29,697 bases of DNA, from the IMG/VR virus record IMGVR_UViG_3300032677_000122, positions 1 to 29,697 of that record. One strand, 5' to 3'. The notes beneath the pieces were generated by a model. The model had not been told where the DNA came from. It saw only the letters and a list, made by a program, of their open reading frames with translations, and did no database searches. Position numbers and translations under genes: made by a program. How positions within the stretch are numbered: the stretch's first letter is position 1; each line of letters opens with the position of its first letter. Below, piece after piece: positions 3,292-27,156 of the stretch. This DNA is from a virus.

Positions 3292-3351
3292 GACAGGATA
3301 AACAGGATTGCCAGGATGATTCTTCATCCTGTTCATCCTGTTCATCCTGTC
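3292..3351. repeat. GACAGGAT palindromic repeat, copy 2, intergenic
   Basis: A 60-bp element with opposed arms of three GACAGGAT-type units each. It fills most of the 89-bp gap between the gp37-like gene (stop at 3360) and the tail-tube-like gene (start at 3270). It is the only one of the four copies outside a reading frame. Confidence 0.9.
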
Positions 3352-3359
3352 GTTTTGTT

Positions 3360-4145
3360 TCATTGCCAGAAATTTGCGGCGGCTGTATCGCTGCCGGATT
3401 TGCCGCGCGCGAACGCCCGCGCGCGGAACAGACCGGAGGACGTGATCGCTACTGGTCCCGTGTACGGGGTTGCGGCGGCGTTGCCTTGGTAGGGATGGGA
3501 ACCGTCCGTCGTGTAAAAAATCGTGTCGGCGTCGGGGGCGGTCACCGTGACCAAACCTCCGGCCGGGCTCGTGAGCTGGTAGCTGTTGGTCTGGGAACTC
3601 GCGGGCGAGACGCCCGCGCCACTAACGCTGATCTGCGGCCGGTTCACCCGGATAAACGGACGGAAATCCGCTTCAATGGCGGTGAACTCCACCATGCCCA
3701 CGCGCAAAGCCTTGTTCGTATTGTCGGTGAATTCGCGAATGACCGGGACCGCCGGCACTAAATTTGAAGTCAACCCGACCGGCGTATAAAGCTTCAAAAT
3801 CTTTTCACACCAGGCGGCGTACACGCGGATCGGCGTGCCCGTGCCTTGCGCGGAATTGTTGATCGTCACATTCTCCACCCATTGAATGGTGATCGTCAAT
3901 TTGAGCGGGCCGCCCGGCGCGGCGGTATTTTCATCAGTCGCCTTTTCGATGGCCATCACCAGGAAGCCGACGCCGTTTTTGCCGTCCAAACCAGCGCCGA
4001 CCACGCGCGCGAGCTTCTCGTTTATTTTGCTGGTGATGTCGCCCGGCTCAATCAGCACGCCGGCGCGCGTGCCCAGGAAGTCATCCGCCTGGATCGCGCC
4101 CAGGATGTCCGCCTGGATGGCCGGCCAAAGATCCTGGTATTTCAT
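3360..4145 (-). CDS. gp37-like tail terminator fused to a CHB_HEX-type beta domain
   Basis: A 261-aa protein. Residues 1 to about 170 resemble Mu gp37-like or tail-terminator proteins: an N-terminal helical start (YQDLWPAIQADILGAI), then a beta core with VTINNSAQGTGTPIRVYAAWCEKIL. Residues about 190-261 look like a chitobiase/beta-hexosaminidase C-terminal domain (PF13290 type), with the signature IFYTTDGSHPY, a Y-T-G-P turn and a final FRARAFARG strand. The two parts are joined by a repeat-encoded peptide GAGVSPASS (residues about 174-184). A clear ribosome-binding site, GGGAGG, lies six bases before the ATG at 4145. The added domain could be displayed on the particle to bind a surface polymer. 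Confidence 0.7.
   Translation of the reverse strand: MKYQDLWPAIQADILGAIQADDFLGTRAGVLIEPGDITSKINEKLARVVGAGLDGKNGVGFLVMAIEKATDENTAAPGGPLKLTITIQWVENVTINNSAQGTGTPIRVYAAWCEKILKLYTPVGLTSNLVPAVPVIREFTDNTNKALRVGMVEFTAIEADFRPFIRVNRPQISVSGAGVSPASSQTNSYQLTSPAGGLVTVTAPDADTIFYTTDGSHPYQGNAAATPYTGPVAITSSGLFRARAFARGKSGSDTAAANFWQ
3594..3624 (-). repeat. 31-bp hairpin repeat encoding GAGVSPASS, copy 1
   Basis: A 31-bp sequence identical, in reverse complement, to 28661-28691. It contains a hairpin with a 7-bp stem (GCGGGCG and CGCCCGC) and a 3-nt loop. In both genes it is read in the same frame and gives the same peptide. Here it separates two protein domains. Confidence 0.9.
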
Positions 4146-6717: not shown

Positions 6718-7932
6718 TTATTGATTGGCGATGACGAGCTTGCGGATGCCACCGGCATAGGTGACGACGATTTTCTCGTAAAATTCCACCGAGATGGCCA
6801 CGAGCTTGGCGCTGATCTGCTGGACGTACACGCGGAACAATCCGCCGCCCTGTTCGGCGTCGAACGTGGAGACGAACCGCTTGATGTTCGAGGGGTCCTC
6901 AGTGTCCACATTGTCCTGGGCAAAGAACGTATAGACGTTTGCACCCAGGATTTCGGACTTGACGGCCGCGCCCGACTGGTAGCGTTCGCGGCTGATCATC
7001 ACGCGGTCCACTTGGAGCGCGGCGGCCATGGCGGCGGCGGCGCCGGACTTGGGATCGTAGCCGAGATACCCGGCGGGGTTGTTTTGCGCGCCATACGCTT
7101 GCTGGCGATACAGGAACGCGGAATCACCATAGAGCACGCGGTTGTTACGGATGCCCGTGAGGGTCGTCTGCGCGACCAGGTCGGCCTGCACGTCCATGTC
7201 GGGATTGACGGGCACAACGCCGGGATTCACCGGCTGGACGCTCCAGGTGAGCGGGACGGTGACGGCGGAGGCCGACAGCGCGGCGATGGCGCGGCGGAAC
7301 GAATTGCGGTACAGGCGGCGCGTGAGCTTGGCCACGGCGTTCTGCTGCCAGCTCGGGACCAGGCCGGCCCCGGCGCCGGTTTCCTGGACGTTGTCCAGGT
7401 CCACAATCAGCGTCAGGCCGCGATTGTAGGTTTTGTCGGTCACGTCCGCGCCGGTGTATTTAACGGACTTGAAGTCCGCGCCGATCGCCCGGGCGTCGTC
7501 CACGATTTCCGACAGGAACTCTTCGGCGTTGGCGGCTTGCTTCCACTCGAAGCGGCGGCCCACCGGTACGGCCGGGGCGACGAATTGCAGCGAGGCTTCA
7601 ATATCGTTCGGATCCCGCCAGCCGACCGTGTAATTGGTCAGCGGCTCGCTGTAGTAGGTTTCCAGGAAGGCGCCCGCGTTGCAGAATTGCGCCGCGATGT
7701 CCTGGCGGCCGTTCAGCCATTCGGTCAAGCGCTGGTCGTAGGCGCCGGGATGATAGCTCTCTTCGTTGGCGAAGAAACATTGGCCGGGGCGATACCCGCT
7801 GCCCCGGTCAATGCCGTGGATGGGTTCGCCCTTGTCAATCGCGTTGGCGAATTCGGGCAAGACAATCTTGCCGAAGCGCAGTGCGCGGGAATTCGGAATC
7901 CCGCCCTTTTTCAATTTGGTTGCATTTTTCAT
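6718..7932 (-). CDS. Major capsid protein
   Basis: A 404-aa protein placed after protease/scaffold and decoration-like genes and before connector genes, the expected slot for an HK97-fold major capsid protein. It has no signal peptide. The first 85 residues are an arm with three F-X-N motifs (EFAN 27-30, FAN 54-56, QFCN 82-85). A long helical/beta shell-like region follows, including an ALSASAVTVPLTW stretch and a C-terminal beta strand set ending KIVVTYAGGIRKLVIANQ. The ATG at 7932 is preferred over the in-frame TTG two codons upstream. The leader is a CTGAAAC repeat and lacks a Shine-Dalgarno sequence. Confidence 0.8.
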   Translation of the reverse strand: MKNATKLKKGGIPNSRALRFGKIVLPEFANAIDKGEPIHGIDRGSGYRPGQCFFANEESYHPGAYDQRLTEWLNGRQDIAAQFCNAGAFLETYYSEPLTNYTVGWRDPNDIEASLQFVAPAVPVGRRFEWKQAANAEEFLSEIVDDARAIGADFKSVKYTGADVTDKTYNRGLTLIVDLDNVQETGAGAGLVPSWQQNAVAKLTRRLYRNSFRRAIAALSASAVTVPLTWSVQPVNPGVVPVNPDMDVQADLVAQTTLTGIRNNRVLYGDSAFLYRQQAYGAQNNPAGYLGYDPKSGAAAAMAAALQVDRVMISRERYQSGAAVKSEILGANVYTFFAQDNVDTEDPSNIKRFVSTFDAEQGGGLFRVYVQQISAKLVAISVEFYEKIVVTYAGGIRKLVIANQ

Positions 7933-7942
7933 GGTCAATTTA

Positions 7943-7975
7943 TTTCAGTGTTTCAGTGTTTCAGCTTTTCAGCAT
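7943..7975. repeat. CTGAAAC tandem repeat before the capsid gene
   Basis: On the minus strand this reads as four units of the type GCTGAAAA, GCTGAAACACTGAAACACTG (units of 9-10 bp). It fills the gap between the decoration-like gene and the capsid start, so it forms the capsid gene leader. Confidence 0.8.
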
Positions 7976-7990
7976 TTGGTTTAGGGCGGC

Positions 7991-8635
7991 TCAGAACGGG
8001 GCTTTGAGCGGGAGGTTGGGAATGATCTCGATGGCATCGCCGGCGTTGGCAGAGGTGTCCGTCCCGATGATGGCCACGCCAATCACGACGTTGGTGCTGA
8101 CGGCCAGGGTGCCCTGGCCGTTGGCGCCCGTGGTTACTTTGCTGCCGTTAACCAGCGTGCCGTCAGTGACGATGCGCGTGGTCCCGACCGTGGCGCCGAA
8201 CAACTTGATGGTGATCGGCATATCCAGCGCGCTGGCATCCGCCAAGTCATCCGATGATCCCAGGGGAATGTCCCCGGCGCCGCAGACGGCGCAATGATCA
8301 CCGTCGCTGCCGATCTTATACAGCAGGTAGCGTGAGGTGGTGGCCGCATCCGGGATGTAGGACTTGTGTCCGTTCTCGTGGACGCCTTCGCCGATGTTGC
8401 AGAATTGGACGCCGCCATGCGGCTGACGACTCAAGCCCAGCCACCAGGTGAAGCGCTCAAACAGGAGCGGAGCCAGGTGCAGCTTGCGCACTTGTGACCG
8501 GAAGAATTTCCGGTTGATGTTGCCGACGCGAAAGCGCGGGCGGTCAATTTGCCGTTGGAAGCGAGTGACGAACCGGGCAAAGAGGTACGCCGCAAGCGCG
8601 ATGATCGCGATCAGTGCGAATAACAGTGTGTTCAT
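7991..8635 (-). CDS. Membrane-anchored capsid decoration-like protein
   Basis: A 214-aa protein with two parts. Residues 4-20 form a transmembrane helix (LLFALIAIIALAAYLFA) followed by a very basic stretch. From about residue 81 the sequence resembles small phage head-decoration proteins of the DUF2190 type: GHKSYIPDAATTSRYLLYKIG, PLGSSDDLADAS, and a terminal repeat of short beta strands including VVIGVAIIGTDTSANAGDAIEIIP. The motif QFCN (77-80) lies exactly between the two parts. It precedes the capsid gene. A membrane anchor on a capsid decoration protein is unusual, so either the head matures at the membrane or the N-terminal part is removed. Confidence 0.65.
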   Translation of the reverse strand: MNTLLFALIAIIALAAYLFARFVTRFQRQIDRPRFRVGNINRKFFRSQVRKLHLAPLLFERFTWWLGLSRQPHGGVQFCNIGEGVHENGHKSYIPDAATTSRYLLYKIGSDGDHCAVCGAGDIPLGSSDDLADASALDMPITIKLFGATVGTTRIVTDGTLVNGSKVTTGANGQGTLAVSTNVVIGVAIIGTDTSANAGDAIEIIPNLPLKAPF

Positions 8636-8647
8636 TTTTTGTTTTGT

Positions 8648-8677
8648 TCAGTGTTGAATGTTGAGTGTTGAATGTTT
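8648..8677. repeat. TGTTGAATG repeat in a gene junction
   Basis: Three units of the type GTGTTGAAT or GTTGAGT lie between the 80-aa gene stop at 8688 and the decoration-like gene start at 8635. The sequence differs from the CTGAAAC strings but occupies the same kind of position. Confidence 0.6.
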
Positions 8678-8687
8678 CCTGGCGGTT

Positions 8688-8930
8688 CTATTTCTTGGCC
8701 TTGGCCTTTTGGGCGGCGGCGTGGGCTTTACGGTCGGCGAGCACTTGCACGGCGGCATCGCGGCTGAGCGCGTTGCCCGATTCCGCGATCAGGGCGCGGA
8801 TTTCTTTTTCGCCGGCGGCCAGGACCGACGCTTCCGAGAGCCTGGACTTGAGGCCGGAGACGGCGCTAATGACATCAGCGTCGCTGGCCTTGGGATCAAG
8901 CCCAAGGATTTGGATCAATTGTTCTTTCAT
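8688..8930 (-). CDS. Small helical protein between protease/scaffold and decoration genes
   Basis: An 80-aa protein, almost entirely helical, starting MKEQLIQILGLDPKASDADV and ending in an Ala/Lys-rich tail (AAQKAKAKK). The LGL-D-x-x-A-S-D-A-D-V-I-S-A-V block resembles the short helical modules seen at the C-terminus of phage gpI scaffolds. It is therefore a candidate second scaffold or head-assembly protein, but the similarity is weak. It is flanked by tandem repeats on both sides (8648-8677 and 8961-8987). Confidence 0.6.
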   Translation of the reverse strand: MKEQLIQILGLDPKASDADVISAVSGLKSRLSEASVLAAGEKEIRALIAESGNALSRDAAVQVLADRKAHAAAQKAKAKK

Positions 8931-8960
8931 TTGCGTTATCAGTTATTGGTTTGATTTCGA

Positions 8961-8987
8961 TGTTTCAGTGTTTCAGCGTTTCAGTTT
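8961..8987. repeat. CTGAAAC tandem repeat overlapping a gene end
   Basis: Three units of TGTTTCAG (CTGAAACA on the other strand). It lies in the 50-bp gap between the protease/scaffold gene and the 80-aa gene, and its last bases run into the stop of the protease/scaffold gene. Confidence 0.75.
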
Positions 8988-10294
8988 TTGGACCGGGGCA
9001 GTTTGATTTCCACGTGGGGGATGTTGGCGAACAGGGCCGGGTGCCGCTGTTGGGCGATGGCGGCGATGCGCCGGGCATCCTTCGCGGGATCCAACTTTAG
9101 TTCGGCGGCGATTTCCGTCTGGACTTCGTTGACGAACTGGCGGCGCACGCGGGCATCCGACACGTCCACCTGCATCTCGCGTCCGCCGCGATTGACGGTG
9201 ACCGACGCGGTTTTAACCACGGGCTTGAGCGCAGCCAGGGCGGTGCTTTCGTTGGCGAACTGCGCCGCGACTTTCAGCCGGCCTTCCCAGACGGGCTTGT
9301 CGGCGGCGGTGATGCGGCCGGTGGCGAGCGCGGCGCCCACGAGGTCCCCAATGCGCGCGGTGCGTTCGTTGGCGAACTCGGCGCGGGCGGCGGCCGTGGC
9401 GGCTTGCGCGGCCGTCAGGTCGTTGGCGAGCTTGGTTTTTTCGGTTTCCAAACCAGTGACCTTATCCGTCAGGGTTTGTTTTTCATTCGCGAACGCCACG
9501 ACTTTTTCATTGATCAAGTCGAGCGCCGTTTCCGTTTCGCCTTCAGTCGGTTCGTTGGCATTGGCGAACTGAGGCTTGAGTGAGAGCGCTGCAAGCAGCG
9601 CGATCAGTTTCTTTTTCATCGTGGCGTTGTGTTTGTTTTTGGTTGTTACGTTTGCCGAATCCACACTGGATTCGGCGAGAGTGTCATCCGCATTGAAAAA
9701 TTCGACGGGCAGGTGCGGATAGGGCGTCAGGCCGGCGCTGACAATCTTGGTGGGGCAATAGACCGGCAACCCGTTGGACTCGCCGTCAGGAACGGAATCC
9801 ACCAGCCGTCCGGAGAAGCCGCGCACCTTCTGGCCATTGACCAGCTTGCGGCCTTCCACCAGGTCCATGCCTTCGTTGGTGAATACGGGCAAACCGTAGA
9901 TGCCCTTCTCACGCACGGCCATGTCAGCGAAAACGCCTTTGGAGGTTTTGTCCGGGTAGCGGCTTTCCAGGCCGGGCATATCAGGATGGCCCAGATAGAT
10001 ATTGCAGCCGCGAATGAATTTCTTGAGGCCCGCGCGTGAATTGTGAAATTGCGCGACCATGCCCTCGGCTGATTCCTTGGTGATGCGCTGGATGGCTTTC
10101 TGGCGCTTCAACCCGCCGCTGTCCGTGGGCAGGAGCGCTTCGCTGGGGAAGTCGCCCAGGGGCGCGATCATGGCCCAGCCATCGGCGTCAATGGTGAGCT
10201 CGTTGACAAAGCAGAGGGTGGCGCCCGCCGTCGCTGCGCTTTGGCGCGGCAAGCCGGTGTTGCAAAATTGGGGGTTGTATGTTTTGGATTTCAT
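8981..10294 (-). CDS. gpI-like prohead protease with C-terminal scaffold
   Basis: A 437-aa protein in the position of Mu gene I, between portal and capsid. Residues about 25-205 resemble the gpI protease domain (NELTIDADGWAMIAPLGDFP at the start, GLPVYCPTKIVSAGLTPYPHLPVEFF near the end). Residues about 226-437 are a helical, Ala/Glu/Lys-rich scaffold with coiled-coil character (EKVVAFANEKQTLTDKVTGL). An internal in-frame ATG at 9619 (M226) could start a separate scaffold, as the nested Z product does in Mu. The protein holds eleven F-X-N motifs. The start at 10294 is chosen because an upstream extension would overlap the portal gene. Confidence 0.75.
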   Translation of the reverse strand: MKSKTYNPQFCNTGLPRQSAATAGATLCFVNELTIDADGWAMIAPLGDFPSEALLPTDSGGLKRQKAIQRITKESAEGMVAQFHNSRAGLKKFIRGCNIYLGHPDMPGLESRYPDKTSKGVFADMAVREKGIYGLPVFTNEGMDLVEGRKLVNGQKVRGFSGRLVDSVPDGESNGLPVYCPTKIVSAGLTPYPHLPVEFFNADDTLAESSVDSANVTTKNKHNATMKKKLIALLAALSLKPQFANANEPTEGETETALDLINEKVVAFANEKQTLTDKVTGLETEKTKLANDLTAAQAATAAARAEFANERTARIGDLVGAALATGRITAADKPVWEGRLKVAAQFANESTALAALKPVVKTASVTVNRGGREMQVDVSDARVRRQFVNEVQTEIAAELKLDPAKDARRIAAIAQQRHPALFANIPHVEIKLPRSKN

Positions 10295-10374
10295 GGTAAG
10301 TTGTTTTGCGCCGCGCGTCTTGGACGTCTGCGCGAAGCCTGCCTTAGGGCAGTAGCACGTAGCTACGGCGCGCT

Positions 10375-12738
10375 TCATTTGGTTTTCATCTTGTACATGG
10401 TTTTTGCGGCAAGCAGTTTTTCCCGGGCCCAAATTTCCTCCACGTAATAAGTGGTTCCGTTGTAACGCTTGGAATATCTGACGGCCGGTATTCCACGAGC
10501 GCTCTGACCTTTCTCGACTGTATCGGGATGGGAAACAATCTCCGGAATCTTCTCAATGTCATCACGGGAGATCGGCAGATGATCTTCCTGATCCTCATGA
10601 CCAACGCCATGTTGTTTGTCAATGTGGACCAATTGGCTGTGTTCAACAAAATGGTGGTAGCCCGAAACATTCTGGCCGGTCGCGGCCCGGATCTTGGCCG
10701 CAACGTCTGCCGTGACGGGAGCGTAAACCGCTTCATCCAGCTTGCCGCTCATCACGTCTTTGAGTTTTTGGACCGGCGATCCCGCGCCCGGCGCGCTGCC
10801 GCCAACCTGGCCAGGACGGCCAGTGTGACCGGGATCACTGTTGGCGAACTCCGGCTTTTCCCCGGCCAATCCATTCGCCAGATTCGCCGACAGGATTTTG
10901 TAGATGGCCTGGGCCACGGCGGGATCGTGATGGAGATTCTTTTCCAGCTTGTCGAGATCCGCCAGGATCGCCGCCAGTTTTTGCTTTTGCAGGTCGGCGT
11001 CGTCAATCTTGGCCACCGCCGCCAGGCGTTCATTGATGGCGCCGAACTCGGATAGGATGGCTTCGATCACCAGTTCCTGGCTACCGGCGTCCAGAGAGTC
11101 GGCGGCTCTCTGCCGAGCTGCCGCTACGTTGCCGAACTCGGGATTCTTGTCAGTCGCGCCGGGCGGAACCGGCGGCTGGCCGTTCGGTCCTGCGGTACCA
11201 GGTTTGCCGTTTGGATCAGCCGCCGGCGCTGCCGATGTCAGCACGTCTTCATCGGGTTTGGGCAGCGGGCGCGAGTAGCGTTCCAAGGTTGCTTGCGTGC
11301 CCAGCAAGCCCTTGCCCGCCTCGTCTTTGAAGCCCGCCAGGAAAGTATCCACCGAAATATCATCCTGAATGTTCCGGCGCGGCGTGGAGCGCAGTTTGAT
11401 GTAGGCGAGCTGGGGCGTGTCCGGGCCAAACTTCCACGCGAGCGCAAACTTGGTGACCTTCTGATCTAGGGTCTCTTCGATGTTTTTGCCATCATCGGTT
11501 TCCAGGATTTCCGTTTCATCCTGTTGCAGACTCGCGCCGGTGCTGTGCTGGCCGGACTTGGTGCCCAAGTCGCCACCGCGCCAGAGCTGCGTAATCGCCC
11601 GGTCGAAAACTTCCAGCGCCTTTTCAAAACCCGCGTCGCCGGTGGCCTTGGCTTCGATCAGGGAAAGCTCCGCGCTCCGGTTGGTCACCGCGCTCCATTC
11701 CTGGGCGAAGTCCTGAACCGCCGCGACAAAATCATTCCATTCCGGCGAATCCTTGACCGCGTCCGTTTTGCCGTGAATGCCGGGCATCCCAAATTTGTCC
11801 AGGAACGAGATCCAAGATTTAAGCATCAAGGATTTCATCAGGTACAGCACGCTGCACGCTTCCATGATGCCGTCGCCGCAAGTGACCAGCCATTCGCCGG
11901 GAACCATGTCGTTGCCGTAGATTTGGAATTCGCTGGGCAGGAAGCGCAGCTTGCCACGCGTGCCTTCGAACCACCAGACCGGGCAGAAGATGAACTTGGC
12001 GGTCAAGGTGCCATCCGGCAACGGCTGCCAAACTATTTCGTGGACCGCGTAGTATTTACCCACCGCGTCCATCATTTGGCGGACCAGCAAACTGAACCCG
12101 CCCTCTTCATCCGGGTTCAACGCCGTGGTCACCCGGGCGTTGCCGTAAAAGTTGGACAGGAAATCCTTTTGCTGTTGCGCCAGCGCCGCCTGGCCTTCCG
12201 CCACATCATCCCGAATCAAAATGTCATAGCCATGCCGCGCCACGCTCTTGAGACGTTTGGGCCGGACAATCTGGATCTGATAATCACGGCGCTCCATCAC
12301 ATCCCAAGCCATGCCGGCCTGGCGGAAGAATCCGACGCGCCATTGATCCAGGTAGCTGACCAGGCGTTCAAAGGTCAGCCCCTTGATCATGTTGGTGCGC
12401 ATCCGCACCGACAGGGTGATGCGCGCCGGCGTCAGGCTGTCGTCAGGAGCATCCTTGAACTTGCCCGGTTGGCTGCGCGGAGCCCGGAAATAATCCACTT
12501 CGTCCGGGGATGGATTGGTGAATTGGCTGGTCGCCGGCCGTCCATCCTTCGCGCCGCCGCTACGGAGGCCAGGCTGATCGGCGCCGCGCGATTGCCGGGA
12601 CGAATTGCCCAGCTTGGGATTCGTCGGCCCCTGATCGCTGATCATGGCGTTGACGAACTGGCGCTGTTCGGCACGGGTTAGTTTGCCGAAGGCGGAGACC
12701 AGTTTCTGGACTTTGGGCACCAAGGAAGTCTGTTTCAT
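10375..12738 (-). CDS. Mu gp29-like portal (DUF935) fused to a PBECR-type nuclease domain
   Basis: A 787-aa protein. Residues about 100-500 match the DUF935/gp29 portal family: VRMRTNMIKG, LLVRQMMDAVGKYYAVHEIVWQ, FLPSEFQIYGND, LMKSLMLKSWISFLDKFGMPG, and the late THTQLAYIKL-like segment (here DTPQLAYIKLRS). Residues about 670-787 resemble the phage-encoded Barnase-EndoU-ColicinE5/D-RelE-like nuclease group (PBECR): HHFVEHSQLVHIDKQHG, a PISRDDIEKIPEIV block, then strands ending in YYVEEIWAREKLLAAKTMYK. A Pro/Gly-rich linker with EFGN and EFAN motifs joins them. A strong Shine-Dalgarno sequence GGGAGG precedes the ATG at 12738 by seven bases. It is longer than usual portals because of the added domain. 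Confidence 0.8.
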   Translation of the reverse strand: MKQTSLVPKVQKLVSAFGKLTRAEQRQFVNAMISDQGPTNPKLGNSSRQSRGADQPGLRSGGAKDGRPATSQFTNPSPDEVDYFRAPRSQPGKFKDAPDDSLTPARITLSVRMRTNMIKGLTFERLVSYLDQWRVGFFRQAGMAWDVMERRDYQIQIVRPKRLKSVARHGYDILIRDDVAEGQAALAQQQKDFLSNFYGNARVTTALNPDEEGGFSLLVRQMMDAVGKYYAVHEIVWQPLPDGTLTAKFIFCPVWWFEGTRGKLRFLPSEFQIYGNDMVPGEWLVTCGDGIMEACSVLYLMKSLMLKSWISFLDKFGMPGIHGKTDAVKDSPEWNDFVAAVQDFAQEWSAVTNRSAELSLIEAKATGDAGFEKALEVFDRAITQLWRGGDLGTKSGQHSTGASLQQDETEILETDDGKNIEETLDQKVTKFALAWKFGPDTPQLAYIKLRSTPRRNIQDDISVDTFLAGFKDEAGKGLLGTQATLERYSRPLPKPDEDVLTSAAPAADPNGKPGTAGPNGQPPVPPGATDKNPEFGNVAAARQRAADSLDAGSQELVIEAILSEFGAINERLAAVAKIDDADLQKQKLAAILADLDKLEKNLHHDPAVAQAIYKILSANLANGLAGEKPEFANSDPGHTGRPGQVGGSAPGAGSPVQKLKDVMSGKLDEAVYAPVTADVAAKIRAATGQNVSGYHHFVEHSQLVHIDKQHGVGHEDQEDHLPISRDDIEKIPEIVSHPDTVEKGQSARGIPAVRYSKRYNGTTYYVEEIWAREKLLAAKTMYKMKTK
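11101..11127 (-). repeat. GTAG-headed REP-like hairpin inside the portal gene
   Basis: On the minus strand it begins GTAGCGGCAG and ends AGCCGCC around CTCGGCAGAG. It encodes VAAARQRAA (residues 538-546) in the linker before the nuclease domain, right after the EFGN motif. The frame is the same as for the copy in the transposase gene at 25465. Confidence 0.75.
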
Positions 12739-12878: not shown

Positions 12879-14944
12879 ACGAGACCGCCTTTTTGACGCC
12901 CGATTCCGGCCCGGCCTGGAAGCGCGATTTTGGTGTAACCGAATTTGCCGGTGATGTTCCCGGCGCACACGATTTGCGCCAGCGCGGAGTAACCGTCCGC
13001 CAGCATGAAATGGTTCTCACATCCATCCACATAATCCCCCAGCGTGCCGTCCTCTTCCTTCTCCCGTTCGCTGCCGGTGATGAGGTGGGCTTCGACGGTG
13101 TCCAGGATAGGCGAATGTCCTGGCGTGATGCGCGGCATCAGCATGGCCGGCGTCTCGCGCACTTTGCCTTTGACGACTTCGACCACGCCTTCAGCCGGCG
13201 TCAGGAATTCACGCACGGCGCGGTCAATCGTCTCGAACCGGTTGCAGGCGATGCACGGCACAAACTTGGTCTGGCCGCCTTCCTCGAAAAACACAATGGT
13301 CTGTTCGATGCCCGCCCCGAGTTTATTCTTGGTGAACCGCACAACGGCGCATTTCAGGTTCAGCCAGCGGGCATTCTTGCCGTCCCAGGTCAAACCGCCG
13401 GGCAGGGTAATATAGGCATCGTTCGGATTCGTGATGCGCGGCCAGTTGGCTAGCGATTGCAGGCCATTAAGGGCGAGCGCAATCGTGCGGGACTCATTCA
13501 CCAGCGGCCGCTCGTCTATGAACAGCGCCGATAGGCCCAGGCGTTGAAAGTGCGCTTGCGCCTGTGCCACCACGTCGCCCGCCGCAATGCGATGCGCGGC
13601 CAGCAAACGCTTCTGTCCATCCGGCGCTGCCTCGCGTGCCAGCAGCCAGCAGCGGTCGCCCATGTCCAATCCACCGAACGCGGCGCGGCCTTCATGCACG
13701 TGCGGAGCCAGGTCGAACACTTCCACCGAACGCGCGCGGTCCATAACCGCCGGGGTGATCGCCTGCGCCGTGCTCTGGGGCAGGCCCAGCACGTCGCAAC
13801 GGAACACGATCATTTCCTCGGGGTCGGCAATCGCCGCCTGGAAGCGGCCCACGATTTGCGACAGGTCAATGGCGCCGATCGCGAGTTGGGAGATTCGGAA
13901 TGACCACTTTCTTTGCTTCAACTGCGCCGGCTGCCGGTGCTGTTCAATTGGCCGGTGGCGGTCCAACTCGGCACCGCACGCCACGCAACCAAGGTAGTAT
14001 ATATGGGTGGGATCGTGGACGGCGGCCACGTCGTCAGAGCCATCGCGTTTGAAGTCACCGGCCCAGGTAAGCCGGGGAGCATTGACAGGATGAACAGGAT
14101 TTACAGGATTGTTTTCCATCCTGTCCATCTTGTTAATCCTGTCTCCATTTTCCCGGTACCGCACGATGCCCGGAAACTCTTCCTCGGCACAGTGCAGGCG
14201 TCCGCACGCGGGGCAAGCGAACGTGAACACGCCTTGCGAACCATCCTTCCACGCCTTGTTCATCCCGCGTCCGTGAACGCGTTGGGTGCCGATCTTGAAG
14301 ATGAACCGCAAATCGCTCGCCGTTAAACGACCGCGCACGAACTTCATCATCTTGGGCTGGATGTCATCCACTTCATCCATCGCCGCCGCATCCATCGAAA
14401 AGGTAGTCGGCACTTTGCCCAGGCCGCGAATCATGCCCACGGACTTGCGCTGGCCGTCCGTCACCAGGAACGCGCCCTTGCGGTTCACGGCCTTGCCGGA
14501 CTTGTTCAGCGCCTTGCCCACCTGGACCATTTCCGCAAACCAATCAATCTGATCCACCACGTCGGGGCGGAACTTGGAATCCACGATGCCCTCAACGAGA
14601 TCGTCATCCGGCAAGTACAAGCCAAAGTTGCGAAAACTTTGGCTGGTAATGTAGGCGGCCAGGTTCAGTTCGAGAATCGTTTTGCCAAACTGAGCGCCGC
14701 CTGCCAGGGAAAGTTCCGCGTCCGCCAGCTTCTCTGTCACGATGCGGTCAATGACACGGACCACGGACAACAATGCCTCGCGTCCTTCAAACGAATAGGG
14801 ACCATGCAGGCCGCGCCCGGACGGCACGCGCGCATCATACAGAAGGAATTCCTCAAACGATTTCCGCAAGGGCGCTTTGACGCCGCGCTGGTCGCCCAAG
14901 GCAACATCCGCCGTCTGCTCAAACGATGGTGCGCGCTTTTTCAT
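12875..14944 (-). CDS. Large terminase subunit (packaging ATPase-nuclease)
   Basis: A 689-aa protein that drives DNA into proheads. The Walker A-like motif GGAQFGKT lies at residues 82-89 and the Walker B MDEVDD at 189-194. Paired cysteines CPACG (244-248) and CVACG (320-324) form a probable zinc finger, as in GpA-type terminases. Acidic residues in FGGLDMGD (D427) and FIDERP (D476) are candidates for the nuclease site. Residues 268-287 (starting DRINKMDRMENN) are encoded by a GACAGGAT palindrome lying between the two cysteine pairs. The ATG at 14944 overlaps the small terminase stop (ATGA), so the genes are coupled. Confidence 0.85.
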   Translation of the reverse strand: MKKRAPSFEQTADVALGDQRGVKAPLRKSFEEFLLYDARVPSGRGLHGPYSFEGREALLSVVRVIDRIVTEKLADAELSLAGGAQFGKTILELNLAAYITSQSFRNFGLYLPDDDLVEGIVDSKFRPDVVDQIDWFAEMVQVGKALNKSGKAVNRKGAFLVTDGQRKSVGMIRGLGKVPTTFSMDAAAMDEVDDIQPKMMKFVRGRLTASDLRFIFKIGTQRVHGRGMNKAWKDGSQGVFTFACPACGRLHCAEEEFPGIVRYRENGDRINKMDRMENNPVNPVHPVNAPRLTWAGDFKRDGSDDVAAVHDPTHIYYLGCVACGAELDRHRPIEQHRQPAQLKQRKWSFRISQLAIGAIDLSQIVGRFQAAIADPEEMIVFRCDVLGLPQSTAQAITPAVMDRARSVEVFDLAPHVHEGRAAFGGLDMGDRCWLLAREAAPDGQKRLLAAHRIAAGDVVAQAQAHFQRLGLSALFIDERPLVNESRTIALALNGLQSLANWPRITNPNDAYITLPGGLTWDGKNARWLNLKCAVVRFTKNKLGAGIEQTIVFFEEGGQTKFVPCIACNRFETIDRAVREFLTPAEGVVEVVKGKVRETPAMLMPRITPGHSPILDTVEAHLITGSEREKEEDGTLGDYVDGCENHFMLADGYSALAQIVCAGNITGKFGYTKIALPGRAGIGRQKGGLV
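14084..14143. repeat. GACAGGAT palindromic repeat, copy 3, in frame in terminase
   Basis: A 60-bp element with two 26-bp arms of three units each. It adds exactly 20 codons to the terminase gene, read as DRINKMDRM in the first arm and NPVNPVHPVN in the second. It lies between the two zinc-finger half-sites, probably in a surface loop. Confidence 0.9.
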
Positions 14945-21239: not shown

Positions 21240-21404
21240 ATGAAATCTTCCACCGCCGCAAATGCCCGCACCGCCTCCTGGCTTGCTGATTCAAGCTCTA
21301 AAAGGTGCGTGGGAAGGGGTCCACATATGAATTCACTGGCCCGCGCTTGCCGGCCTGGGTCCCTCGGCGGCTTCTCTTCAAAAGCTGAAAAACTGAAACA
21401 CTGA
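21240..21404 (+). CDS. Doubtful 54-aa ORF
   Basis: This ORF starts one base after the previous stop (MKSSTAANARTASWLADSS) and runs into the CTGAAAC repeat at 21381. The second half is low in structure and partly repeat-encoded. It may be a decayed or spurious gene; it is listed because of its placement in the coupled operon. Confidence 0.3.
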   Translation: MKSSTAANARTASWLADSSSKRCVGRGPHMNSLARACRPGSLGGFSSKAEKLKH

Positions 21405-21413
21405 AATACTGAA
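21381..21413. repeat. CTGAAAC tandem repeat, rightward copy 1
   Basis: Units AGCTGAAAA, ACTGAAACACTG and AAATACTGAAA run up to the ATG at 21414, again at a gene boundary. The orientation matches the direction of transcription, as for the minus-strand copies. Confidence 0.8.
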
Positions 21414-21509
21414 ATGAAAACCGTGCTGCAACTGATTGATTGGCTCCAATGGCGGCTCGCCTGCCTGCGGATGGACTTGCGGCTCTTGGGGAAAATGCTG
21501 AAACGCTGA
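21414..21509 (+). CDS. 31-aa ORF, possibly a small peptide
   Basis: This encodes MKTVLQLIDWLQWRLACLRM followed by a basic tail. It has an amphipathic aromatic helix and lies between two CTGAAAC repeat strings. Short size and lack of a ribosome-binding site make it uncertain. Confidence 0.3.
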   Translation: MKTVLQLIDWLQWRLACLRMDLRLLGKMLKR

Positions 21510-21528
21510 AACCTGAAACACTGAAATG
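21496..21528. repeat. CTGAAAC tandem repeat, rightward copy 2
   Basis: Units ATGCTGAAACG, CTGAAACCTG and AAACACTGAAA overlap the end of the 31-aa ORF and lead to the next start. Confidence 0.8.
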
Positions 21529-23544: not shown

Positions 23545-26112
23545 ATGATCTCCGATCTCAACATTTTGGGCGACGCCAACCAAGCAGGGGAGCCACGTAC
23601 ACAAACCGTCCCGATTGCAAGCGCGGCGTCGCCCGATTCTGATTCTGACAGGATGAACAAGATGGACAGGATGGAGCAAGCGGCCCCGTCTTATCCGGTT
23701 AATCCGGTTAATTCTGTCCAAATTGTTCCACATGGAATGGGTTTGCAGTTCAGCGCGCCGCTGATCCAGCCGGTCCACGACGTGCGCGAGTACCTGGCCG
23801 CGCGCCAGCCGGTGATGTTTTACCAGGACGAACTGCCGTTGCTCATCACCTTGCCGGAGAATGATGAACGGAACATTCATGTGCGGTCCGAAACCCGCGC
23901 CTTGTGCAGCGCGTGCGAATTGGTGCTGGCCCGCGTCAAAAATCGTGAGAGCGTGAACAGCGCCTGCAAGGCCGTGCTCAAACTGTTCCCGCTGGCCAAT
24001 TGGAAATTGGGCACCTTCCGGCAAAAGTATGATTGGTGGATTGAAGCCAAGGATTGGACTGTGCTGGTCAACTGCTCACGCGCCGGCGGCGATTGGATTG
24101 ACCGCGCCACCGCGTTGCCGGCCGCCTTCGTGGTCTATGCCCTGAACCGCGTGGATGAACTGGACGGCCAGTTGCAAGAAGCCATCCGCAGTCTGCGGCG
24201 CCAATGGCAGACCGGGCTGAACCATGCCGGCCAGGCGGAGGCCATTGCGGGCTATGACTGGAAGAGCAGGGACGTGCGCAGAATGCCGGAAGGCTGGGGC
24301 CACAACAATTTGTCCCGCCATCTCAAGCGCGAGTTCAAGCTCCGCGCGCTCCCGCCTGAATTTATTCAGTTCTGGAAACTGCTCTGTGAACTTCACCAGC
24401 GCGTGAGCAGCAACGCCCGCCAACAATTGCTGGCGCTCTGGCAAACCAAACTGCCCTTTGAAATCAACGGCCAGGCTTACGAGCTGATCCCCGGTTACAC
24501 CGACTGGCCCGCCGCCGATCCGCGCACGGACGTGCCCACCGGCTGGACCGAATCCAACCTGAACCGTCATCTTCCGGATGCCTACGAGCTGGCCGCCGCG
24601 CGCATCGGCATCAAGCAGGCGGGCAATCTGGGCTTCAAGATTCGCACGTCGCGCCTGGGCTTGAAGCTGGGCGAGTTCATGGAGTTTGACGATCACGAGT
24701 TCAACGTGAAGGTGAACTTCCCCGGCCAATTGCGCGCCCTGCGTCCGCGCTGTTTTGGCGCGGTGGATGCGTTGTCGGACTGCATGTTTAGCATGGTGAT
24801 CAAGCCCACCTTTTGGGATCTCGAAGCCGAAGCCAAGCGCACCCTGACGGAAAAAGATTTCATGTGGTTCATCGTGGCCGTGCTCACGCATCGCGGCTAT
24901 CGCGCGGATGTGGGCACGATGCTGCTGTGCGAGTGGGGCACGTCGGCGATTCGCGGCAACCTTAAACTCAAAATTAACGACCCGTTAAGAGACGATTTTG
25001 AGAAGCGGATTTTTGATTGCACGGGCGGCAAGGTCCGCGTGGATCGCGGCGGCCGGTTCCGCAAGGCGGCCCATCCCGGCCAGTTCGCTCCGCCCGCGGG
25101 CGGCAATTTCCGGTTCAAGCCGCACGTCGAACAATTCTGGCGGATGCTGGATGACTGGTTGGATGCGCTCAAGGGCCAGGTGGGCAAGAGCCGCGATTTC
25201 GCCCCGGAGGAAATGGAGCGGGCCGACGCCTATAACAACAAGCTGCTCAAAGCGGCCCGGCTGATGGGCGTGGACCAGGCTGCCAGCCTGATCCTTCCGC
25301 GCATGACTTTTGCCGAGTTTACCCAGGCGGCCAATCGGGTGATGAACCTGGTGAATGACGATCCCGATCATGAATGCAATTCGTGGGAGCAATGCGGCTT
25401 CGTCACCAAGGAATTCCGCGAGATTGAATCCGCGCCCTGGCAACCGCTGGCCGCCCTGGCTAACGTAGCGGCGTCTCGGCAGAGCGCCGCCATTCAAGCC
25501 ATCCAGGCCAACGATCTCCTCTTTCGCGCCCGTCGGATGACCCGCGCCGAAGCGGATAAGACTCAGCGCCATCAGCTCACGCCGCTGCCGATGATGATGA
25601 TTCCCGCGCTGGTGGGACCGCAATTCGCCCGCCCGGCCGTAACGGTGCGCAAGGGCAAATTCGAGATCCAGGATCGCAATGAGTTCTGCACGCCGGATGC
25701 CCTGGTGTTCGTGGCCATTGACGCCGAAGGCCGTCCTTTGCCCGAGGGCGAGCAATACACGCCCTACATCAACCCCATCTCCCCCGACGCGCTGGTGATC
25801 TGCGACGCGCGGGGTTCCGTGGTCAGTGTCTGCCCGCCGGACCTCCAGCCCGCGCGCAATGACGATCACGGCGTGAAAGAGGCCATGGGCGTGAAAAACC
25901 ATTGGCAGGCTCTGAAGCTGGCTCCCCAACGCGAGCGCCATGCCGCCGCCGGCGCGGGCGTGGAGTTCATGCGTCTGCACAACGCCCAACTGACGCCCGC
26001 AGCGGCACCTAGGCAGAGTGCCGACGAAATGACCCAGCCAGTCCGCGTGGACGATTGCACGGAAGACACTTTGGCGCGGGAATACACCGCGCCCACAACA
26101 CAGTTCGACTAA
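23545..26112 (+). CDS. MuA-like DDE transposase (phage integrase)
   Basis: An 855-aa protein in the position and size class of MuA, directly followed by a MuB-like gene. N-terminal DNA-binding-type regions (residues about 85-230) precede a transposase core. The first catalytic Asp is probably D382 in EFDDHEF; the last acid is E529 in KPHVEQFWRML. The second lies either at D455 (GYRADVGT) or at E463 in CEWGTSAI, which replaces the usual D-N-G motif. Residues 35-58 are a GACAGGAT palindrome product, and 641-649 and 819-827 derive from GTAG hairpins. A start at M65 (23737) would exclude the palindrome, but the first ATG lies three bases after the previous stop. Confidence 0.75.
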   Translation: MISDLNILGDANQAGEPRTQTVPIASAASPDSDSDRMNKMDRMEQAAPSYPVNPVNSVQIVPHGMGLQFSAPLIQPVHDVREYLAARQPVMFYQDELPLLITLPENDERNIHVRSETRALCSACELVLARVKNRESVNSACKAVLKLFPLANWKLGTFRQKYDWWIEAKDWTVLVNCSRAGGDWIDRATALPAAFVVYALNRVDELDGQLQEAIRSLRRQWQTGLNHAGQAEAIAGYDWKSRDVRRMPEGWGHNNLSRHLKREFKLRALPPEFIQFWKLLCELHQRVSSNARQQLLALWQTKLPFEINGQAYELIPGYTDWPAADPRTDVPTGWTESNLNRHLPDAYELAAARIGIKQAGNLGFKIRTSRLGLKLGEFMEFDDHEFNVKVNFPGQLRALRPRCFGAVDALSDCMFSMVIKPTFWDLEAEAKRTLTEKDFMWFIVAVLTHRGYRADVGTMLLCEWGTSAIRGNLKLKINDPLRDDFEKRIFDCTGGKVRVDRGGRFRKAAHPGQFAPPAGGNFRFKPHVEQFWRMLDDWLDALKGQVGKSRDFAPEEMERADAYNNKLLKAARLMGVDQAASLILPRMTFAEFTQAANRVMNLVNDDPDHECNSWEQCGFVTKEFREIESAPWQPLAALANVAASRQSAAIQAIQANDLLFRARRMTRAEADKTQRHQLTPLPMMMIPALVGPQFARPAVTVRKGKFEIQDRNEFCTPDALVFVAIDAEGRPLPEGEQYTPYINPISPDALVICDARGSVVSVCPPDLQPARNDDHGVKEAMGVKNHWQALKLAPQRERHAAAGAGVEFMRLHNAQLTPAAAPRQSADEMTQPVRVDDCTEDTLAREYTAPTTQFD
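23647..23718. repeat. GACAGGAT palindromic repeat, copy 4, in frame in the transposase
   Basis: The first arm has GACAGGATGAACAAGATGG units; the second arm is diverged, with ATCCGGTTAATCCGG in place of ATCCTG units. It is read as DRMNKMDRM followed by YPVNPVNSV. The frame is open throughout despite divergence. Confidence 0.8.
25465..25491 (+). repeat. GTAG-headed REP-like hairpin inside the transposase gene
   Basis: Begins GTAGCGGCGTC and ends GAGCGCCGCC around CTCGGCAGAG. It encodes VAASRQSAA, read in the same frame as the portal copy (VAAARQRAA). Confidence 0.8.
25999..26025 (+). repeat. Degenerate REP-like hairpin near the transposase end
   Basis: A diverged copy, GCAGCGGCACC at the start and AGTGCCGAC at the end around TAGGCAG. 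It encodes AAPRQSAD, in the same frame as the other coding copies. The head has changed from GTAG to GCAG. Confidence 0.5.
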
Positions 26113-26139: not shown

Positions 26140-27156
26140 ATGAGCACCGAAAACACACAGGTCACCAAATGGAAACCCTCCCCCGAACAGCACGCGCTGC
26201 TATCCGCGCTTCTGGAGGAATCGAAAAAAGAAAAATCCACCGCCGACTTTGCGCGCAAGTTCCTCCCGTTCGGGCGGAGTCTCTTTGACCAGATCATGGA
26301 CGCCCTCGACGCGGGCCGCCCCGAAAGCTATCTGGACAAAGTCTCCGAAGAGCGTCGGCGGAGCCTCTTTGATGAGTTGGAGCAAATCCTGTCCGAGATC
26401 CCGCGCAAGCGCGCCCTGATGACCCGCGTGCAAGAACTCGACATTTTCTTGACTAGTAAAATTCGCGCGGTCGAAACCGCCGTGGCCGAATGCAGCGTCA
26501 AACAGGGACCGGAGCGGCTCATCTTGTTTTTGGCCCCGACAGGCGGCGGAAAAACCATGCTATGCAATCACCTGCAAGCCGAAAAAAACGCGCGCATTGT
26601 CCAGGTGCGCGCCGCCTGGCGACGGAGCGAGAGCGGCCTGGTACCACTCATTGACATCTGCCGCGCTGTGGGAGTGCGCGTCGGGAAAAACCCGCGCGTT
26701 GCCAAGATGGAAGACGACCTGATTAAATTCTGTCAGAGCCGGCAGCTTTTGTTGGTTTTCGACGAAGGGGAGCATTTTGGAAAATCCGCGCTCAACCTGA
26801 TCAAATTCTTATTAAACGAAACCAACATCGTCATCGTGCTCTGTGCGGTCCCGGGTGAATATGACAAGTGGTTTGACTTCTTTCCCAACGAGGCCGAACA
26901 GGTGGCGCGTCGCAACCATGCGGTGTATGAAACCAGCCTGCTGCCCGAAAAAGACGTGGCCCTGTTTTTTCCCAAACACCAATTCGACGACGAAGCCGCG
27001 GCGCTCAAGAAGATCGCCACCGAGGCCAGCACCTTTGGCCATTACAGTTTGGTTCGACGGGTGGCGGTCCGCCTGGCGAATATCAAAAACGTGAAAGAAG
27101 GCGACGTGGCCGCCGCGCTCAAGAGCGCCCAGGCGGAGATGAAACGCAAATCGTAA
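26140..27156 (+). CDS. MuB-like AAA ATPase (transposition target selection)
   Basis: A 338-aa protein directly after the transposase. The Walker A motif APTGGGKT lies at residues 132-139 and the Walker B LVFDEGEHF at about 205-211 (D208, E209). The N-terminal 90 residues are helical and basic with a FLPFGRSLFDQIMDAL segment like the MuB DNA-binding N-terminus. MuB-type ATPases coat target DNA and bring it to the MuA transpososome. The gene has no Shine-Dalgarno sequence (AACAAAAAAATG). Confidence 0.8.
   Translation: MSTENTQVTKWKPSPEQHALLSALLEESKKEKSTADFARKFLPFGRSLFDQIMDALDAGRPESYLDKVSEERRRSLFDELEQILSEIPRKRALMTRVQELDIFLTSKIRAVETAVAECSVKQGPERLILFLAPTGGGKTMLCNHLQAEKNARIVQVRAAWRRSESGLVPLIDICRAVGVRVGKNPRVAKMEDDLIKFCQSRQLLLVFDEGEHFGKSALNLIKFLLNETNIVIVLCAVPGEYDKWFDFFPNEAEQVARRNHAVYETSLLPEKDVALFFPKHQFDDEAAALKKIATEASTFGHYSLVRRVAVRLANIKNVKEGDVAAALKSAQAEMKRKS

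Follow-up and report, generated by a model that had tools for sequence, protein, structure and literature searches.

A repeated Phe-x-Asn motif in the head proteins of an uncultured phage family, a probable cleavage code of its Mu gpI-type maturation protease

The window analysed here spans all 29,697 bases of an IMG/VR virus record (IMGVR_UViG_3300032677_000122), in which a short protein motif, [QE]F-x-N or a close variant of it, recurs in the head proteins. The head genes lie on the minus strand, as do the motif copies given below, in the order terminase, portal, protease/scaffold, a small gene, cement protein and major capsid protein (MCP). The portal protein (787 amino acids (aa); 10375..12738) contains a Portal_Mu domain at residues 145-443 (Pfam E 2e-45) and a PBECR3 nuclease at residues 679-787 (7.6e-17). 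The next gene (437 aa; 8981..10294) encodes, in a single reading frame, a maturation protease (~residues 41-190) fused to a scaffold (~221-437). It matches phrog_328, a head maturation protease family (E 1.7e-8). A profile search gave no match of this protein to PF10123; the same family is matched by 22/35 aligned protease relatives (best E 1.8e-29). In the predicted model, residues 41-190 are beta-rich and 221-437 helical. When the protease model was compared with the PDB for a herpes-assemblin/T4 gp21 fold, T4 gp21 (5jbl) ranked first but weakly (E 2.8e-3, probability 0.99; TM-score by target 0.47). H103 and S161 are invariant in 35/35 relatives and are candidates for the catalytic His and Ser. 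A separate Mu Z-like scaffold (212 aa; 8981..9619) may start at the internal Met226, which is aligned across relatives and lies near the Mu Z start; no Shine-Dalgarno sequence was seen for it.

The cement, or decoration, protein (7991..8635) was assigned through Phage_cement_2 matches in 13/35 relatives. It has an N-terminal arm of ~80 aa, and hydropathy analysis places a hydrophobic helix at residues 4-20. Such an N-terminal helix occurs in 30/35 cement relatives and is odd for a capsid decoration protein. The MCP (6718..7932) has the HK97 fold according to its structure model, which Foldseek matches to 3bjq (E 7e-14) and to further capsid proteins; phrog_1005, a major head protein family, is matched by 25/36 MCP relatives. 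Its N-terminal arm (residues 1-68 and 76-105) is modeled with low confidence.

About 40 distinct related loci were collected through MCP and protease searches. Five of them lie in bacterial contigs, of Verrucomicrobia subdivision 3, Pedosphaera (two), Spartobacteria and Kiritimatiellaeota. Neither the MCP of the window and that of locus L052 nor the scaffold of L011 has a match among 50,697 cultured phage records, so no close cultured relative with protein data is at hand.

The original prediction, made from the sequence, gave about 11 copies of the motif in the protease/scaffold, four in the portal, three in the MCP and one in the cement protein. Every copy that it listed is present, and the protease/scaffold has 11. 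The portal has an N-terminal site, QFVN (residues 27-30; 12649..12660), and F-clade relatives carry RFAN/QFAN/AFVN-type motifs near the portal N-terminus. EFGN (534-537; 11128..11139) was placed, by alignment with relatives and cultured phages, in the linker between the crown and the C-terminal helical region, and EFAN (630-633; 10840..10851) lies ahead of the PBECR3 nuclease. The portal of L017 has the same layout, with QFAN followed by its own PBECR3 (E 5.4e-19). The remaining portal copy, QFTN (72-75; 12514..12525), is weaker because only L003 among the aligned relatives shares it. In the MCP, EFAN (27-30; 7843..7854) is followed by FFAN (53-56; 7765..7776), the copy to which the junction motif in shorter relatives aligns, and by QFCN (82-85; 7678..7689), the final copy ahead of the core. 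The cement copy, QFCN (77-80; 8396..8407), stands exactly between arm and core. Motif copies are also found ahead of the MuF domain in the MuF proteins of L003 and L017.

The protease/scaffold begins with QFCN (9-12; 10259..10270), in an N-terminal arm of low model confidence, and CFVN (28-31; 10202..10213), whose Asn is kept in 34/35 relatives. EFFN (198-201; 9692..9703) marks the protease/scaffold junction, and the scaffold half contains QFAN (242-245; 9560..9571), AFAN (267-270; 9485..9496), EFAN (306-309; 9368..9379), QFAN (345-348; 9251..9262), QFVN (386-389; 9128..9139) and LFAN (421-424; 9023..9034), the last of which is absent from aligned relatives. Two copies, QFHN (82-85; 10040..10051) and VFTN (137-140; 9875..9886), lie within the folded protease and lack conservation of the Asn (8/35 and 13/35, respectively); they are therefore probably not sites, and the idea that all 11 copies are sites was rejected. 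The original claim that codons differ between copies is correct only in part: the MCP and cement QFCN copies have identical codons and two scaffold copies are identical at 21/22 bases. In some relatives (L003, 4898-6232; L026; L004) the scaffold half has an internal duplicated module, a helix followed by GIxFANEAEITDPAAT, which is absent from the window.

The motif is strongly concentrated in the head proteins, as the original prediction expected of a comparison with shuffled controls. The 437-aa protein has 11 F.N against a shuffle mean of 0.85, and none of 5000 residue shuffles reached 11. Likewise, the portal has four [QE]F.N (0.10 expected; 0/5000 shuffles), the MCP two (0.11 in residue shuffles, P 0.004) and the cement protein one (0.025 in residue shuffles, P 0.025). 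The seven other genes tested each have none or one [QE]F.N, and the other structural genes are not enriched. An unprompted scan of residue pairs at spacings 1-4 also ranked F.N first in the window scaffold (P 1.7e-9 before correction for ~1600 patterns). Background was taken from other long open reading frames (ORFs) of related loci, in place of the host proteome. Over nine related loci, the four head proteins have 7.9 F[ACSTVGH]N per 1000 residues and the other long ORFs 0.64, a density about 12 times lower, so non-head phage proteins do not share the frequency of the head proteins.

Related phages keep the motif at the same junctions, again as predicted. In alignments, the Asn is invariant where a variable arm meets a conserved core, in the MCP (36/36, at FFAN 53-56) and in the cement protein (35/35), and also at the protease/scaffold junction (35/35, with L in 25 and F in 8 two residues before it). 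The arms upstream of the Asn are highly variable. The residue two before the junction Asn is F or L, more rarely I or A, and the residue directly before it is mostly Ala. Glu at P1, the specificity of T4/phiKZ-type prohead proteases, was not found at these junctions. Directly following the Asn, the MCP has Glu, Asp or Ala and the cement proteins have mostly I, N or V. The latter favours Asn as P1, and a cut one residue later (N-E|) was set aside on this ground.

The residue at P3 co-varies among the head proteins of one phage. Scaffolds prefer F.N in the window clade, L.N in others (L057, 12 vs 1.7 expected) and A.N in L047 (13 vs 4.3), where A-x-N is found in the scaffold, MCP and cement protein alike. 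MCP and cement P3 agree in 27/33 loci (14 FF, 12 LL, 1 AA). The scaffold excess of F over L is +6.0 or -2.8 depending on the MCP P3 (permutation P <5e-5, kinship ignored). On a tree of MCP cores, in which deep support is weak, the F type appears in the window clade and again in L048, and the A type in L047. Motifs were also picked automatically from each scaffold alone and sought in the other head proteins of the same phage, with motifs shuffled among phages as the control. The scaffold-derived motif was present in the portal C-terminal third of 26/45 phages (vs 13.7 under shuffling, which reached at most 23 in 5000 trials), in 23/33 cement proteins (vs 13.7) and in 29/33 MCPs (vs 22.5). The automatic choice fails for JBD30, JBD25, RcapMu, SuMu, L043 and L047, in which other patterns come first.

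The same arrangement extends to cultured phages with different tripeptides. The repeated scaffold tripeptide is F-[ASG]-E in B3, PhiKM and phiSHP3, F-A-A in Lsp-JY19, and L-S-A in Mu and a Vibrio phage. The B3 scaffold has nine F.E (1.1 expected), that of PhiKM five FAE, that of Mu six LSA (0.24 expected) and that of ZX4290 seven LSA. In B3, PhiKM, phiSHP3, YPCBV1 and Mu, one copy of the phage's own scaffold motif is aligned in the portal linker. This single region past the crown contains EFGN in the window, VFAN, EFAN, QFSN, EIAN, ALAN or QLGN in its relatives, FAE in B3, PhiKM, phiSHP3 and YPCBV1, and LSA (429-431) in Mu. In the Mu virion structure the last 124 residues of the portal are absent, which was ascribed to protease I (PMC11915804, itself citing Grimaud 1996), and LSA 429-431 falls within this missing stretch. 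Mu gpI/gpZ (PF10123) resembles the window in its fused protease and scaffold, its gene order (portal, protease/scaffold, MCP), its repeated scaffold tripeptide and a candidate trimming site in the same portal linker; it differs in using L-S-A instead of F-x-N and in an MCP without an arm motif. The B3, RcapMu and BcepMu-type phages share with the window a repeated F-small-x at homologous scaffold places and, in several cases, one portal C-terminal copy, but have Glu (or Ala) at P1 where the window has Asn, and again show no motif in an MCP arm. Mu gpT was rejected as a substrate, as it has no motif and, according to a GenBank note, sequencing confirmed its start. In the JBD30 minor capsid protein, the unresolved N-terminal stretch (residues 1-52) was considered as a cleaved arm; the candidate gene has no L-[ST]-A there.

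Taken together, it is very probable that the phage's own Mu gpI-type maturation protease recognizes and cuts the repeated F-small-N, read as P3-x-P1. The general form of the motif is most likely [F/L]-x-N|, cut after the Asn, judging from T4 and from SPN3US gp245, whose cuts follow A-x-E (PMC10052503); the P3-x-P1 logic of head proteases is established for both phages (PMC10052503, PMC5694885). T4 gp21 ([LI]-x-E) and SPN3US gp245 likewise combine a fixed P1 with a lineage-specific P3, act at several sites in scaffold or propeptides, and remove arms of the MCP and, in SPN3US, of the portal. Unlike the window enzyme, they use Glu at P1 and belong to different protease families by sequence; the SPN3US sites are proven by mass spectrometry, those in the window predicted. 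In T4, used as a control, L.E is the top residue-pair pattern in gp22. The original prediction had left a choice between a cleavage and a docking site for a gpI-like enzyme. Docking, in which F-x-N would bind scaffold, MCP, cement protein and portal to the protease or to each other and stay uncut, equally predicts enrichment in head proteins and co-variation, and a motif repeated in a scaffold is what it would lead one to expect. It is nevertheless unlikely, as cutting better accounts for an invariant Asn where a variable arm gives way to a conserved core, and for the homologous linker in the Mu portal, which reportedly loses its C-terminal part (PMC11915804).

The repeats could also be a functionless by-product of scaffold module duplication and shared ancestry, given the helix-plus-QFAN modules in scaffolds such as those of L003 and L026 and the near identity of two window copies over 22 bases. 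This is very improbable: four proteins unrelated to each other share the motif, L003 and L017 have it in MuF as a fifth, and the P3 switches are concerted. Least probable of all is another kind of modification, or processing by a host protease instead of the phage enzyme. The link drawn between motif and enzyme is indirect, but the motif varies by phage lineage, is dense in the scaffold to which the phage protease is fused, and follows the P3-x-P1 logic known from other head proteases of phages. What favours cleavage by the phage enzyme is the unchanging Asn where arm meets core, the joint variation of P3 across the head proteins of a single phage, the occurrence of each lineage's own tripeptide, that of Mu included, in the portal linker, and the rarity of the motif outside head genes. 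This reading seems to extend to Mu-type proteases generally.

Several observations weigh against cleavage. A cement protein normally binds the head exterior, beyond the reach of an internal protease. The JBD30 portal and the JBD25 portal linker have no motif, and cultured-phage MCPs lack it at the N-terminal arm; motif-bearing MCP and cement arms were seen in the Verrucomicrobia-associated family only. Several loci (L030, L058, L043, L029) are discordant. Since the permutation tests ignore phylogeny and the MCP tree is weakly supported at its deep forks, the independent concordant switches may number perhaps two or three.

A maturation pathway can be proposed on this basis. What the sequences show is where the motif lies, how it is conserved and co-varies, and which junctions are homologous; cutting, the exact bond, the sequence of steps and the freeing of the nuclease are inferred from this. 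After prohead assembly, the protease (~residues 41-190) would free itself from the scaffold at EFFN 198-201 and fragment the scaffold at about six places, 242, 267, 306, 345, 386 and possibly 421, letting the pieces leave the head. It would also remove the N-terminal arm of the MCP, a mostly low-confidence region with three motif copies in 85 residues, and the cement arm along with its hydrophobic helix. The cement protein may join the prohead early through this hydrophobic arm, which would give the internal protease access to it. The portal would be trimmed at 27-30, 534-537 and 630-633, and, as the last of these sits ahead of PBECR3, a cut there would release the nuclease into the head interior. 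Fusions of the RNase-like PBECR domain to the portal, or to MuF, are known among polyvalent proteins and were proposed to be delivered effectors (PMC5512222). The window portal is such a fusion but, unlike the known ones, has candidate protease sites in the linker, suggesting release during maturation. Related phages would have re-tuned P3 (F, L or A) with P1 Asn fixed; other Mu-like lineages use F-x-E or L-S-A.

A broader proposal, that each PF10123 protease follows a lineage-specific tripeptide code readable from its own scaffold, that enzyme and substrates switch together, and that in the window family this code also governs MCP and cement arm removal and the release of the portal nuclease, is somewhat better than an even bet. 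The codes meant are F-x-N, L-x-N and A-x-N in the Verrucomicrobia-associated phages, F-x-E or F-x-A, and L-S-A in Mu. To our knowledge, few phages have a head protease of known cleavage specificity, and in those it was established by experiment. Here the scaffold sequence by itself is apparently enough to read the code and to transfer it across lineages. It gives i) an exact predicted site in Mu, after portal residue 431; ii) predictions of where the mature proteins of an uncultured phage family begin and end; iii) a natural series of protease/substrate co-evolution with Asn, Glu or Ala at P1; and iv) a possible mechanism for freeing a packaged nuclease. These tripeptides were not found described in the open-access literature, the scope of the search.

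Other features were observed in these genomes. An ORF downstream of the head genes contains tandem 14-residue repeats ending in P/LFWDER in two relatives (L004:13990-14721 and L006:13978-14514). The window encodes an AAA ATPase akin to DNA transposition proteins (26140-27156; phrog_296, 6.9e-13; AAA_22, TniB-like), and the 855-aa gene beside it may be a transposase, though it has no profile match. Runs of 8-base units (e.g. CTGAAACA, CTGAAAAG) occupy intergenic positions 29-88, 1443-1494, 7931-7987, 8943-8999 and 21372-21527, one of them upstream of the MCP gene. Four copies of a palindromic repeat (GACAGGATGAACAGGATGGACAGG ... CATCCTGTTCATCCTGTC) are present, at 871-946, 3292-3365, 14075-14148 and 23647-23723. 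Two of these lie in frame within genes, the terminase (where it reads DRINKMDRMENNPVNPVHPVN) and the 855-aa gene, and the repeat resembles a hairpin element that enters coding regions by insertion.

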